Below are positions 44,474-63,111 of a DNA stretch of 64,000 nt, one piece after another. The DNA is taken from contig JALHSZ010000006.1 in NCBI GenBank assembly GCA_022865485.1, positions 1 to 64,000 on the forward strand, read 5' to 3'. The position numbers and the translations under genes are program-made. Under the pieces are notes generated by a model that was not told the origin of the DNA, did no database searches, and saw only the letters and a list, made by a program, of their open reading frames with translations. The number at the start of each line of letters is the position of its first letter. Positions within the stretch are counted from its first letter, which is position 1. This stretch comes from Dehalococcoidales bacterium (GTDB lineage: Bacteria > Chloroflexota > Dehalococcoidia > Dehalococcoidales > BS750m-G39).

Positions 44474-44638
44474 ATGGCAAGACGAGATGAGTCAGGGAAA
44501 CTAAAAGGACCTATTTCAAAAAGAGTTCAGGCATTAAATCCAGTTACTAAGAGATGGGTAAAAATTGATACTTCTACTGGAAAGATTATCGCCCATAAGA
44601 AGTCCTCTACCCCTTATAAAGGTGTAAGGAAGAAATGA
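44474..44638 (+). CDS. 54-aa basic small protein
   Basis: Not in ORF track; MARRDESGKLKGPISKRVQALNPVTKRWVKIDTSTGKIIAHKKSSTPYKGVRKK; directly after promoter; ATGA overlap with next gene. Confidence 0.75.
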   Translation: MARRDESGKLKGPISKRVQALNPVTKRWVKIDTSTGKIIAHKKSSTPYKGVRKK

Positions 44639-45312
44639 TCATTTGTCCACTTACTTTGGACGAATGTAGCAGGCACATACTCCTGCGTCCCAAAACTGTA
44701 TTTCTGATGACACCCGCTAAAGCCAAACGCGATGACGCATTAAAAAATGTTATTTCTCGTGTGTCTTCCGCAGTGAAACGAAAAGGCCTTTCACCGTTAG
44801 ATGGAAATGATGTGATTGGACTTGGGGACACCCTATGTAATATTTGCTCTACAATGCAAGGGTGTGCAATGGGTATCGGTTTTTTTCATCCCGAAGTACC
44901 TGCTGACACTCTGTCTAACATTTTTTGGGAAATGGGGTTATTACAAGGCTTGGGCAGACCCGTATTAATAGTGACAAACAAAAAAGAGAGTTTGCCTTCA
45001 GATTTTAGCCGTGATTTCTGTATTTTTTATGGATCTAACCCACAGTATATAAGAGCCTTCTCGGATCTAGTTCAGTCGATAAAGGAACGAGAAAACTATT
45101 ACATCGGCTCTTTGGCTGATGAGGCGCTTCGGAACGCTGACTACGAAAAGACTATTAAGTATTATCAAGAGGCATTTCTAATAAATGGTAATCGTCGAAT
45201 ATTAACTAAAATGCGTAGACTGAGAAGAGATGTTAAGCCCAAGCATATACCGCTAGAGTTGAAAAATAGACTCATAAGCATGATTGATAGTTTTCTGGAC
45301 GATGCGTCCTGA
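44635..45312 (+). CDS. TIR/nucleoside-deoxyribosyltransferase-like domain protein with C-terminal TPR-like helices
   Basis: VFLMTPAKAK, ALSNIFWEMGLLQGLGRPVLIVTNK-type segment resembles the catalytic-Glu 'NVxxElG.A.alGkPvi' motif; C-term ADYEKTIKYYQEAFLINGN. Confidence 0.5.
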   Translation: MIICPLTLDECSRHILLRPKTVFLMTPAKAKRDDALKNVISRVSSAVKRKGLSPLDGNDVIGLGDTLCNICSTMQGCAMGIGFFHPEVPADTLSNIFWEMGLLQGLGRPVLIVTNKKESLPSDFSRDFCIFYGSNPQYIRAFSDLVQSIKERENYYIGSLADEALRNADYEKTIKYYQEAFLINGNRRILTKMRRLRRDVKPKHIPLELKNRLISMIDSFLDDAS

Positions 45313-48418: not shown

Positions 48419-48515
48419 GTTTTCTCTCCTCTCTCTTTATTAACTTTTCGTTAAAGCCCCGTCGGGTGATTAGCCGCGCTGCTCTCGTTTCATAGCTAAT
48501 CCCTTAAGCTCTTTA

Positions 48516-50195
48516 TTATTTGCTGTTAAGTACCAACTCGGACTCTGTTTGAGATGGCTTTTTGCCTTTGGGACGTCTTTTCTTCATGCGCTCGGCTTGA
48601 AACCGTATCATTTCATCAAGCTTCTCGTACATTTCTTCAGATGACTCACTGTCATTCCTTGCAAAGCAGGCGGCAATCGCTCTAAAAACGACAATTTCTA
48701 TGCAATCCTCGTTTATGCCTTGCTCGTAGGCAGGGTGGTCAAGATTGACAAGTATGAGCGATTCTTGTTGTCTTATATCGCATTCAGGCCAATCCGCACC
48801 TAAAGGATGTATCTTTATATCATACATTTGATTTCTAAAACGCAGACGTCCTGAGCCGAAAATTGCTTTTATCTCTTTCATGAGCTTGGATGGTATAGGC
48901 GTGTGGTCTCTATGTCTCTCCAATCGCCTTTTAGTTTCAATGTGTAGGTCAGGGCGGATCACTGTTCTCCCAGTCTCGTCCACTCTCCCCTTTATTGTAC
49001 TGTCTTGCCTAGCTTTGCGCTTTAAGAGTTCATCATAGGCGTTGAAGTCTTCCGCAACTTGTTTTATAGCCTCATCGACTTTTGCTTTTTTCTCAGCCTC
49101 TTCCTTTGCTTGGTGTTTTCTTTCCTCTTCTCTACAGATGTCTGTAAGCAATTTTTTCATATAGTCAGCGTAGGCTACGTATTTAGGGTGAGTCTCAACA
49201 AAACCCTCTCTATCTGTCTTTATAACCGGCATCTCGTCCGTTTTATCCTCTGGGTCAAAGCTAGCTACCTCCGCCGAACCAGCTATCAAATCACCAACAT
49301 GGTATGTAAAACTGGTTGGTGATAAGCCAAAGAGACTAGGTTCTCCAACAACACGACCCCTTACCGTAGTGAAGACTCCTGGTTTCTTAAGCATTTTCGT
49401 AGCTATGAGAATCTCCCCAACAATATAACCGCAAATGGGGTCTGTATGATTTATGGGGATTTTCCTGCGAGCGGGAATATCTTTTGGCTCACAAGGATGA
49501 CCGTTTACTATCACCCTGAAATTTTTCCCTAATGGCAATTCATGGGCTAAATGAGCAATTACCTTATCCACATCTATTTTACCGCACTCTGGCCTGAGTT
49601 TCCTCAGTATTACTGTGGTCCCATTGCGTTCACCTTTCGCGTCAAATTCCATAATCGGCATGGAGGCACGGTCTAGGACGGGCTCTTTTAACTTTCCCAT
49701 TCTCTCAGTATTTTCAAGTTCGTCTCGGTCTAAACAGAATTCGAAAGCCTTGCCATTTTTGACAGTTCTAACCTCTATTCTCTTTGCAATACCAAAGCCA
49801 TCGAGCTTACCGATCCCCTTGTTGCCAATAGGGAGACGGTGGAAAATGGGAGTTTGCTTAACAGCCCGTTTTTGCCCTGATCCCAAGAACATGTACCCTT
49901 CTCGGATATCCAGCTCATCCATGCCCTCTCCGTTGTCTTGAATTACGATCTTATCATGCCCTTTATCTCCGAGGACTGCGCGCATGAGCTTTTCTTCCGG
50001 GGCAAGTCCTCCCCCAGCTTTGATATCGACGGTTACGTAATTAGCATCAGCGTCGTAGCCATTTACTACGAGCTCGCTAATTGCCTTAGAATACTTGCTA
50101 TACATGGTGAGACCAATATGATCCAACATTTTTATTGCTGTAAAGAACTTTAAATCGCGCAGCCTGTGCCCTTCAGTTTTTTCCTTTCCGTTCAT
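48516..50195 (-). CDS. GHKL ATPase, MORC/Hsp90-like
   Basis: N box KAISELVVNGYDADAN, G1 IVIQDNGEGMD, G2 IGNKGIGKLDGFGIAKR; GGGAGGGG SD before ATG 50195. Confidence 0.8.
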   Translation of the reverse strand: MNGKEKTEGHRLRDLKFFTAIKMLDHIGLTMYSKYSKAISELVVNGYDADANYVTVDIKAGGGLAPEEKLMRAVLGDKGHDKIVIQDNGEGMDELDIREGYMFLGSGQKRAVKQTPIFHRLPIGNKGIGKLDGFGIAKRIEVRTVKNGKAFEFCLDRDELENTERMGKLKEPVLDRASMPIMEFDAKGERNGTTVILRKLRPECGKIDVDKVIAHLAHELPLGKNFRVIVNGHPCEPKDIPARRKIPINHTDPICGYIVGEILIATKMLKKPGVFTTVRGRVVGEPSLFGLSPTSFTYHVGDLIAGSAEVASFDPEDKTDEMPVIKTDREGFVETHPKYVAYADYMKKLLTDICREEERKHQAKEEAEKKAKVDEAIKQVAEDFNAYDELLKRKARQDSTIKGRVDETGRTVIRPDLHIETKRRLERHRDHTPIPSKLMKEIKAIFGSGRLRFRNQMYDIKIHPLGADWPECDIRQQESLILVNLDHPAYEQGINEDCIEIVVFRAIAACFARNDSESSEEMYEKLDEMIRFQAERMKKRRPKGKKPSQTESELVLNSK

Positions 50196-50213
50196 TTTTA
50201 CCCCTCCCAATTT

Positions 50214-50444
50214 TTATAATTTAAAACCCTCTTTGTTTGAGAAGTGAAATTTTGACTTGGTTTCTCTCACTCTTTTAGTTATTGCCGAGAATATTTTATT
50301 TATATCTTCTTCTGAGTAGCCATAAATCTGTCTATTGGAGCAATTGCCGAGTAGCCTGAGTTTATCAAGAACAGCGCTGGTTCTTGCTTCAGCAACTCTC
50401 TTAAAGCGCTCTTCTGGAGTCTCATTATTACTTATTCTTCTCAT
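50214..50444 (-). CDS. Small helical protein co-transcribed with the GHKL ATPase
   Basis: MRRISNNETPEERFKRVAEARTSAVLDKLRLLGNCSNRQIYGYSEEDINKIFSAITKRVRETKSKF; SD GGGAG before ATG 50444; 18 bp from next gene. Confidence 0.75.
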   Translation of the reverse strand: MRRISNNETPEERFKRVAEARTSAVLDKLRLLGNCSNRQIYGYSEEDINKIFSAITKRVRETKSKFHFSNKEGFKL

Positions 50445-50484
50445 TAAAAACTCCCTATACAAAATATTCGTCGTATATTTAAAA

Positions 50485-50513
50485 TATATAGCATATTTTT
50501 TATAAAATGTCAA
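50485..50513 (-). promoter_or_regulatory. Sigma-A promoter, TTGACA / 17 bp / TATATA
   Basis: Reverse-strand hexamers upstream of the two-gene AT-rich operon. Confidence 0.75.
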
Positions 50514-50552
50514 GCATTTATTTTTATAATACTATTATATTTTAACATATTA

Positions 50553-50585
50553 GGAAATAATAAAGGCTAGGCACAAGCCTAGCCT
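50553..50585 (-). terminator. Rho-independent terminator after the initiator tRNA
   Basis: AGGCTAGGC-TTGT-GCCTAGCCT followed by TTATTATTT on the minus strand. Confidence 0.75.
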
Positions 50586-50596
50586 CTTCTCTTCTT

Positions 50597-50671
<75 letters not shown>

Positions 50672-54060: not shown

Positions 54061-54654
54061 CTATTCATTACATGCAGGAAATAAATCAGCTAAGAGTATG
54101 TCTAACTTATATAGTTTTGCGAGATTTATATATTGCTGAACCATCAGGGAGTCTTTTACTTTTAAATACCCGCTCTTTTTAGCACCTTTGTAGTTATGGT
54201 TTCTCATACAAATGTATAGTTTCTTGACTCTTGAGTCCAATAACGCTTTTAAAACATCTTTAAAAAATTCAGCGAAAGCGTCTGACAAACTAATTTCAAA
54301 AGCTGTCCCTGTTTCAATGTCCAAGATGTCAAAAGCCTGCAATTTTTTCGAGTCGATACTGATAGCCTCATTATTGACATTGTCAGAGGCAAATCTTAAA
54401 GTCATTCCTTCAGCGACAGAGGCTTCCATATTCAGCCTATCTCCGAACTTGTTCTTAAGGTATTCCTGCAATTTCTTAGTGGTTCTTGATGCTTTAGCTT
54501 CATCCCTGTCATAATGGGATAAGCCTAGTTGTTTAAGCCATTCAACTTTATAATCAGCGTAGGCATATCCATCACTTCTCTTTTTTAACAGAAAAATCTG
54601 TCCAAAGAACTTTTCTATTTCAGTGAGTACATCCTTATCTACTTTCATTCTCAT
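54061..54654 (-). CDS. Uncharacterised protein (possible PD-(D/E)xK-like fold)
   Basis: AT-rich ORF, 197 aa; FDILDIETGTAFEISLSDAFAEFFKDVLKALLDSRVKKLYICMRN core; 14 bp after zinc-ribbon gene. Confidence 0.65.
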   Translation of the reverse strand: MRMKVDKDVLTEIEKFFGQIFLLKKRSDGYAYADYKVEWLKQLGLSHYDRDEAKASRTTKKLQEYLKNKFGDRLNMEASVAEGMTLRFASDNVNNEAISIDSKKLQAFDILDIETGTAFEISLSDAFAEFFKDVLKALLDSRVKKLYICMRNHNYKGAKKSGYLKVKDSLMVQQYINLAKLYKLDILLADLFPACNE

Positions 54655-61355: not shown

Positions 61356-61514
61356 TAGGCTCCCCTTTTATCTAGTAGGGTGGCGACATGGCATTATATT
61401 GGCTGTGGGCGTTTTGTGTTATTGTAGTCTTACGGTTGCGTTTAGTCCATAGATTGCACAATTCGGTAGTGGGTCAATTTGAAATCATTGACAAGGCTGG
61501 TTGCAAGGATTATT

Positions 61515-62195
61515 ATGAAGAAAAGGGATGTATTAAGAGGCTCTCCAATGCTAATGACTGACGATATGATTCGTTCAGCAGTACATGAGGGCAACCTGCA
61601 AATCCACGATTTTGACGATTCCTGCTTACACCCAGCAACATATGATGCCCGTCTCGGTGAAGAAGCCATAACAAGCTCTTTCAGGGAAAAGATAAACCCC
61701 AGTAACAAGGGGCTATTCACGATACCAGCTGGAGACTTTGCCCTTGTAACCACGCATGAGAAATTCAAACTCTCTGCTAGTGTGGCAGGTCATATTGGTT
61801 TACGTTCGCATTATAGCAAAAAGGGGTTGTCTTTATTATCCGGCCCGCAGATAGACCCAGGCTTTAATGGTGTTCTTGTTGTAGGGTTGTCTAATCTAAG
61901 CCCTAGAGATGTCACAATTCCTTACAAAGAGAGATTCTGCACTTTGGAGTTCTATAAACTAGCTGAGCCAGCCAGTGTACTTTATCATGGTGAGTATCAA
62001 AACCAAAAGGGAATCTCTCCACGGGACTTGGAAAATCTTGTAGAGGCTCAGGGGATGACTTTCGGGCAGGTGATAAAGCTATTGGGAGATTTATCACTTA
62101 ATGTGAAATCACTATCAGATTCAGTTACATTTCTTAAATGGGCGATTCCAGTAGCCTTTGCTATAATAGCTATATTAATAGCTGTCATTAGATAA
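61515..62195 (+). CDS. dCTP deaminase/dUTPase-fold protein with C-terminal transmembrane helix, catalytic residues apparently lost
   Basis: LHPATYDARLGE, GHIGLRSHYSKKGL, QIDPGFNGVLVVGLSN align with Dcd motifs; C-term FLKWAIPVAFAIIAILIAVIR is a TM segment; ATG 61515 has AAGGA upstream. Confidence 0.75.
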   Translation: MKKRDVLRGSPMLMTDDMIRSAVHEGNLQIHDFDDSCLHPATYDARLGEEAITSSFREKINPSNKGLFTIPAGDFALVTTHEKFKLSASVAGHIGLRSHYSKKGLSLLSGPQIDPGFNGVLVVGLSNLSPRDVTIPYKERFCTLEFYKLAEPASVLYHGEYQNQKGISPRDLENLVEAQGMTFGQVIKLLGDLSLNVKSLSDSVTFLKWAIPVAFAIIAILIAVIR

Positions 62196-62227: not shown

Positions 62228-62683
62228 ATGGCAAAATATACTGCTAGGGATGTGGCGGAATACTATCTCTGTTGTTCTACTGATAGGGAATCGGGGGATT
62301 TAATCTCTAACCTAAAAATTCAAAAACTAGTCTATTATGCTCAGGGTATTCATCTAGCAGCCACAGGTAAGCCACTATTTGATGAGGAGATTGTAGCATG
62401 GATTCATGGGCCTGTAGTTGAGAGTTTATACCACCAATATAAGCATAATGAAGATGGCCCAATTGAGCCTACACCAAACTATGATTTGCCGAAGTTTGAT
62501 AAAGATACCAAACAACTCTTAGATGAAGTATATCGTGTTATAGGTCAATATTCTGCTTGGAAGCTCAGGGAAATGACACACAATGAGACTCCTTGGATGA
62601 GAGCGTATAGAAATGGCCCTGGCTCAGTCATTGCACATGCAGATATGGCTGAATATTTCAAACCTTTTGTTAAGGTTAATTAG
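62228..62683 (+). CDS. Panacea (SocA-like, DUF4065) antitoxin-domain protein
   Basis: LISNLKIQKLVYYAQGIHLAATGKPLFDEEIVAWIHGPVVESLYHQYK; WKLREMTHNETPW. Confidence 0.85.
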   Translation: MAKYTARDVAEYYLCCSTDRESGDLISNLKIQKLVYYAQGIHLAATGKPLFDEEIVAWIHGPVVESLYHQYKHNEDGPIEPTPNYDLPKFDKDTKQLLDEVYRVIGQYSAWKLREMTHNETPWMRAYRNGPGSVIAHADMAEYFKPFVKVN

Positions 62684-62685
62684 TC

Positions 62686-63111
62686 TTGCCTAAAAAACGC
62701 ACAACTTATGTTACTTCACCTGCCCAACCCACAACTAGCACCAGCATAAATATTCCTGAAAGGGTATCTACCCCATTTACACAGCAGCCCATAACTTTCA
62801 GTATTGAATGTTGTGATGGAAAGTGGTGCTTCAATAAAATAAAAGAACTGCGAGAAAAGGCTAATCTTGCTGCCAGATTACATGAATTGAGCCAATTGGC
62901 TTGGGGCGATAGTAAACAAACTAGTAGACAATCGCTTGGTTATGAGACTTTAGACCATATTAAAGTAACTAGTAAGAAATTACCAGCGGGGGCTAGAAAA
63001 ATAGGATTTGTTTACCATAATAATCATCGGATGATAGGTTATCGAGATGTGCAAGGCATTTTTCACATTCTTTGGTTTGATTACAATGGGAAGTTATACA
63101 AACACAACTAG
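62686..63111 (+). CDS. Uncharacterised protein, candidate partner/toxin of the Panacea protein
   Basis: Starts 2 bp after the Panacea stop (TTG); KIKELREKANLAARLHELSQLAWGD; C-term RMIGYRDVQGIFHILWFDYNGKLYKHN. Confidence 0.65.
   Translation: MPKKRTTYVTSPAQPTTSTSINIPERVSTPFTQQPITFSIECCDGKWCFNKIKELREKANLAARLHELSQLAWGDSKQTSRQSLGYETLDHIKVTSKKLPAGARKIGFVYHNNHRMIGYRDVQGIFHILWFDYNGKLYKHN

Follow-up and report, generated by a model that had tools for sequence, protein, structure and literature searches.

A small protein family encoded directly upstream of several classes of GHKL-type ATPases, with a member in an accessory tRNA-Met cassette of a Dehalococcoidales bacterium

A family of proteins of about 75 residues, of which P0002 is the member considered here, is shown by sequence comparison to be encoded immediately before several classes of GHKL-type ATPase and to have changed the class of its partner repeatedly. 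P0002 and its partner P0001 are encoded in a draft genome (1.19 Mb) of a Dehalococcoidales bacterium, within the 64,000-nucleotide stretch that was analysed (the window), as a cassette of two genes, acquired by horizontal transfer, that adjoins the 3′ end of an initiator tRNA-Met gene; the role of the cassette would most likely be defence against foreign DNA. We hold with middling confidence that, in genome defence, P0002 serves ATP-gated GHKL clamps as a shared adaptor, the window encoding a minimal pair in which no nuclease is recognised.

The cassette and its chromosomal site

The features of the cassette and its surroundings are as follows.

50597–50671, minus strand: initiator tRNA-Met (CAT), the attachment-site gene, with its 3′ end toward the cassette
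50562–50587, minus strand: terminator-like hairpin with a T-run, just past the tRNA 3′ end (pattern match only)
50485–50513, minus strand: promoter-like TTGACA-17-TATATA, upstream of P0002 (consensus match only)
50214–50444, minus strand: gene for P0002, a predicted helical-hairpin protein of 76 residues (ORF, family alignment, structure model)
48516–50195, minus strand: gene for P0001, a GHKL ATPase of 559 residues (ORF, Pfam, structure model)
50046–50078, minus strand: N box of P0001, SELVVNGYDAD, residues 40–50, with the putative catalytic Glu41 and Mg-binding Asn45
48478–50596, no strand: variable segment, from the gene for a 199-residue PK_C-domain protein to the tRNA 3′ end (synteny with the same-genus genome G001 ends near 48477)

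An earlier note on this DNA, made from its letters alone, had described an AT-rich two-gene operon with one promoter abutting the initiator tRNA gene, and all of these elements were found. The P0002 gene comes first and that for P0001 follows after a spacer of 18 bp, each preceded by a plausible ribosome-binding site as read from the sequence. The promoter was read by eye, the automated scan having skipped it because it demands T at the last −10 position. GC3 is 0.434 for P0001 and 0.325 for P0002, well below the mean of 0.724 (s.d. 0.125) over 41 window ORFs, in keeping with the foreign origin that the note had proposed. The tRNA-Met is assigned as the initiator because, as read from its sequence, the first acceptor pair is mismatched and the anticodon stem carries GGG:CCC.

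The cassette is accessory and horizontally acquired: far from being core to all relatives, a possibility that the note had entertained, a match to P0001 was absent from the 10 genomes searched (two of the same genus, eight of the same family). The slot between the tRNA and the PK_C gene is occupied in G001 by an acetyltransferase-like ORF and in G002 by an isochorismatase-like gene with a tRNA 3′-end copy at its flank. Past the tRNA, the family member G006 has isochorismatase and serpin genes with more tRNA-end copies, and in G004 and G008 25-nt repeats spaced 655 bp apart enclose the gene for a 133-residue protein; direct repeats of the tRNA 3′ end are thus present in G002, G004, G006 and G008. 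Because the same tRNA 3′ end carries such varied cargo in relatives, it is a cassette hotspot, and the suggestion that the tRNA gene serves as an integration site holds. The tRNA-derived repeat predicted for the far boundary did not materialise at the window's far edge, where the best match is 12/25, equalled by 517 of 1000 shuffles. Across the initiator tRNA-Met loci of the family (L079, L080, L083, L091, L102, L105) the cassettes comprise one or two genes and in several cases lie between 22–25-nt tRNA-end copies, and isochorismatase, serpin and the 133-residue protein recur across genomes at this site.

Other parts of the window also contain low-GC genes. A pair at 62228–63111 (plus strand), encoding a SocA/Panacea-domain protein (Pfam E 1.4e-22) and then a 141-residue protein, is probably a toxin–antitoxin pair; a dCTP-deaminase-like gene lies ahead of it at 61479–62195. 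The ORFs at 54061–54654 (minus strand) and 44635–45312 (plus strand), with GC3 of about 0.36–0.37 and without a Pfam match, are possible recent acquisitions.

The GHKL ATPase P0001

The earlier description of P0001 as a MORC/Hsp90-like GHKL ATPase, with N, G1 and G2 boxes and a following coiled coil, stands. Pfam HATPase_c_3 matches with E = 1.7e-16 (60.9 bits, cut-off 25), and all the boxes can be located (N box, residues 40–50; G1, 83–92; G2, 123–131; GT, 192–193). Together with the catalytic Glu and Mg-binding Asn, these assign P0001, at the level of sequence, to the GHKL ATPase superfamily. Residues Glu41, Asn45, Asp87, Gly91, Gly124, Gly192 and Thr193 show no variation among the 35 aligned relatives; of the 25 sequences that extend to Arg329, in the S5 region, 23 have this residue. 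Because these motif residues are invariant and Arg329 is mostly kept, P0001 is expected to be an active ATPase.

An AlphaFold2 model (mean pLDDT 71.5) suggests a GHKL domain (residues 20–240), an S5-like domain (245–335), a long helix (337–398) and a C-terminal α/β domain (416–558), the last modelled at low confidence and including an NLDHP motif at 484–488. The coiled coil is predicted as a single 62-residue helix, i.e. residues 337–398. The best PDB folds for the model are MORC2 with DNA (E 5e-12), MORC3 and TRAP1, and phage RIIA proteins are prominent among its viral fold matches; of the fold searches that had been suggested for both proteins, that with P0001 gave these matches, whereas the P0002 model matched nothing. 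The modelled succession of a GHKL and then an S5 domain is that of prokaryotic MORC/paraMORC proteins. The MORC S5 motif, GhXhhpXXRhl, is partly recognisable in GVFTTVRGRVV (residues 273–283), where the hh pair is missing and the G, the R and the final residues remain. In sequence, P0001 stands closer to GHKL domains of the BbrUII/paraMORC type, and to the partner ATPases of class C described below, than to MORC proper.

Single-protein scans of GTDB and of viral contigs returned no close relatives of P0001, and among 400 genomes of the phylum there was no clear relative of its C-terminal region; one match, at L030, proved to be a coiled-coil SMC-like protein. Three viral contigs (L263, L271, L320) encode P0001-like GHKL proteins of about 530–560 residues with a different C-terminal domain, by eye resembling the HEPN/Ymh type, in L263 with a C5-methylase gene directly ahead.

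The P0002 family and its partners

Searching with the small protein alone gave a family of 145 bacterial and archaeal GTDB loci, and the neighbourhood counts use the 80 that were retained; relatives also occur on plasmids. Common to all is a loop of the LGNxSNRxxY type that joins two predicted helices, a block modelled with pLDDT 94–98, and in 76 of the 80 loci the protein ends in an F-x-L-type tail. The window P0002 has the GNxSNRxxY loop, the two predicted helices and the C-terminal F-x-L, and its model as a helical hairpin with an invariant loop fits the small helical protein that had been foreseen. Its relatives, which reach 70% identity within its class (E 5.8e-30), and the depth of the family indicate that the gene pair is more than a chance arrangement. 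No convincing match to P0002 was obtained in Pfam, PADLOC or the PDB, the family profile giving weak, coiled-coil-like PDB matches only. Nor was a published account found in a literature search that covered neither preprints nor most subscription papers; within searchable sources neither the family nor its exchange between ATPase classes seems to have been described. P0002-like proteins are also phage-borne, in viral contigs (L247–L250, L254–L262) and cyanophage records (H61–H71), most of their genes being without a GHKL neighbour in the sequence covered; these could be decoys or reflect an independent use.

At 70 of the 80 loci a GHKL-type gene is the first or second gene downstream of that for P0002; at L169 it lies just upstream, so that 71/80 have such a gene no more than two genes away. 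The doubt raised beforehand, that the small protein might not be linked to such ATPases elsewhere, can therefore be set aside. Where the direct downstream gene is large, the median gap is 12 bp, and in 56 of 58 cases it is within 50 bp. The partners fall into at least four classes that BLAST does not join, A (36 loci), B (15), C (10) and D (10), class C having an extra gene of about 210 codons between P0002 and the ATPase. Among the class A partners scanned, 25 match the PADLOC candidate PDC-M33A.

The Pfam HATPase domain is recognised in only 15 of 69 scanned proteins, and the profiles of classes A, B and D, searched against the PDB, met with no GHKL protein, so that for these three the GHKL assignment rests on motif order and profile alignment. 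Aligned to the profile of the P0001 family, class D scores E 1e-9 and class B E 8e-5; a C-type pair (L177/L226) aligns over nearly its full length (E 7.5e-10), and P0001 is reached from the main class C profile as well. Class A is marginal in this comparison (E 0.03); the Glu/Asn, G1 and G2 residues are kept in 21 divergent class A members.

The linkage is one-way, in that M33A-like genes occur without P0002: ten PDC-M33A-like loci from the same phylum, Chloroflexota, lack it. As a control, none of 110 loci encoding P0001-like (BbrUII-like) GHKL ATPases from other systems carries P0002. Nine P0002 loci are without a GHKL neighbour (L170–L172, L174, L188, L203, L232, L235, L236); in L170–L172, from Veillonellaceae/Selenomonas, the P0002 homologue directly precedes a ResIII/DEAD helicase gene. 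With respect to conservation of the pair itself, P0002 with a GHKL-type gene recurs, but P0002 with a close relative of P0001 is seen only in the window, none having been found at any other P0002 locus. Because this combination is seen only once, we infer the P0001–P0002 partnership from the wider pattern.

A tree of P0002 homologues (75 sequences, 76 columns), the details of which are unsure, requires at least 15 changes of partner class in its best form; strongly supported branches alone require at least four changes for class A and five for class C. In the sister pair L177/L181 (support 100/98) one partner is of class C and the other of class A, and the sequence nearest to the window P0002, whose own partner is P0001, comes from a Dehalococcoidales relative in which the partner is of class A. 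Thus, despite the 76 columns, exchange of partner class is shown at the sequence level by well-supported mixed groups.

Possible roles and comparison with known systems

In the window, the genes flanking the pair encode, by inspection, SDR, PK_C-domain, hydrolase and RarA-like proteins, and no nuclease, methylase, restriction or other defence gene adjoins it; the restriction/defence-island setting that the earlier note had associated with such ATPases is not found here. A defence role is instead suggested by analogy with relatives. Raw counts over 97 genes near P0002 loci include 14 C5-methylases, 14 PDC-M33B and 13 DUF6339 genes, and a motif scan gave C5-methylase-like ORFs in 23 of 65 loci (a raw count; that in L183 overlaps the partner ATPase and may be spurious). 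Genes for Vsr, MutH/Sau3AI, Shedu and Gabija-like OLD/UvrD proteins lie beside plasmid-borne P0002 copies. On two plasmids (L140, L141) class B pairs are beside OLD-type ATPase genes, in L141 also with a UvrD helicase, as in Gabija.

To our knowledge, how bacterial MORC-like ATPases are switched on is mostly unknown; the occurrence of one small family with several ATPase classes, in different phyla and domains, suggests a control step that they have in common. P0001 would act as a dimeric ATP-gated GHKL clamp, with P0002 as its small adaptor. By analogy with the families concerned, ATP binding would cause the GHKL domains to dimerise and close around a DNA or protein target, with Glu41 as the likely catalytic base and the S5 arginine, Arg329, completing the site. 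P0002 may dock on the ATPase via its invariant tip loop or its F-x-L tail, so licensing loading or closure, and the choice of target or the effect may come from the variable C-terminal domain of the ATPase or from a downstream gene. Because no nuclease is recognised in the window, it is proposed that P0001 either clamps or compacts invading DNA, as MORC proteins do, or recruits an effector encoded elsewhere; the outcome would be exclusion of foreign DNA. It may be, more tentatively and with the balance against it, that the family is a general exchangeable adaptor needed by several GHKL defence systems, a 'clamp loader' or sensor tail that allows ATPases to be swapped, which some phages, perhaps to make a decoy, have copied without the ATPase (the stand-alone genes of viral contigs and cyanophages).

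Other explanations share some of this evidence. The small gene coming first, the tight coupling and the AT-rich, horizontally moved character of the cassette would suit a toxin–antitoxin system, with an antitoxin-like P0002 keeping a toxic GHKL ATPase in check until the cell is infected or a plasmid is lost. We regard this as quite unlikely, given that the loop and tail of P0002 are nearly invariant across phyla, unlike typical fast-evolving antitoxins, that its predicted hairpin is no obvious DNA-binding fold and that one small protein is common to several ATPase classes. The window pair might also be a reduced piece of a larger system, inactive by itself, since larger systems have more parts, i.e. 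the extra gene of about 210 codons in class C, to which P0001 is closest, or PDC-M33B and DUF6339 in class A, and no effector was found in the window. Against such a remnant, which seems unlikely, both reading frames are intact, the promoter, ribosome-binding sites and ATPase residues are kept, and class B and D partners also follow P0002 without the extra class C gene.

That P0001 is a GHKL restriction endonuclease of the BbrUII/HgiDII type is improbable: NCBIfam NF050001 (E 2.3e-37) and PADLOC REase_II models do match, but over residues 20–240, the N-terminal half, only and with 128.9 bits against a cut-off of 550; no methylase gene adjoins P0001 and its C-terminal region differs. A chaperone-like or nucleoid-compaction module, carried on a neutral cassette unrelated to phages, could account for the TRAP1/HtpG-like matches, the lack of adjoining defence genes in the window and the other, not defence-like, cargo at the tRNA site (isochorismatase, serpin). 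It is nevertheless highly improbable, as C5-methylase, DUF6339 and PDC-M33 genes are often near relatives, to which plasmids add Vsr and restriction genes; as an Hsp90/HtpG chaperone proper P0001 was rejected, the full-length HtpG model scoring 19.5 bits against a cut-off of 371.

The shared-adaptor reading can be set beside several known systems. The connection of bacterial MORC-like ATPases with restriction loci dates from 2008 (Iyer et al. 2008, PMC2292703). As described in the accessible part of that paper, the prokaryotic MORC/paraMORC proteins of R-M systems resemble P0001 in their N-terminal GHKL and S5 domains, variable C-terminal extension and sporadic horizontal distribution; they differ in that P0001 appears to retain just part of the MORC S5 motif, and in having a helicase, methylase or nuclease partner, no SFII helicase, methylase or nuclease gene being seen among the flanking window genes. 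The same part of the paper does not mention a conserved partner of about 75 residues. In VcSduA/paraMORC3 of Shedu type I-D (PMC12137116) a GHKL ATPase is likewise the control module of a defence protein, but there in one protein with a DUF4263 nuclease; P0001 has no Pfam match to DUF4263 or a PD-(D/E)xK nuclease, and this identity was rejected. With the BbrUII/HgiDII enzymes P0001 shares the GHKL domain (residues 20–240), whereas its C-terminal half and gene context differ.

With respect to its location, the cassette resembles the ssrA genomic islands of Dehalococcoides (PMC3146451), which comprise tandem cassettes bounded by RNA-gene 3′-end repeats, some without integration genes; here, by contrast, the site is an initiator tRNA-Met gene and the cassettes contain one or two genes.

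A further relation is to PDC-M33, an uncharacterised phage-defence candidate in PADLOC, the A gene of which is the class A partner behind the P0002 homologue at a large proportion of the loci. P0001 itself is not PDC-M33A, matching only REase_II models in PADLOC, no PDC-M33B or DUF6339 ORF was seen by inspection between 46.4 and 53.1 kb, and P0002 is in no PADLOC model. If the shared-adaptor reading is true, P0002 would be a missing part of PDC-M33; the GHKL module itself is of a known kind, and the small partner family appears to be the new part.
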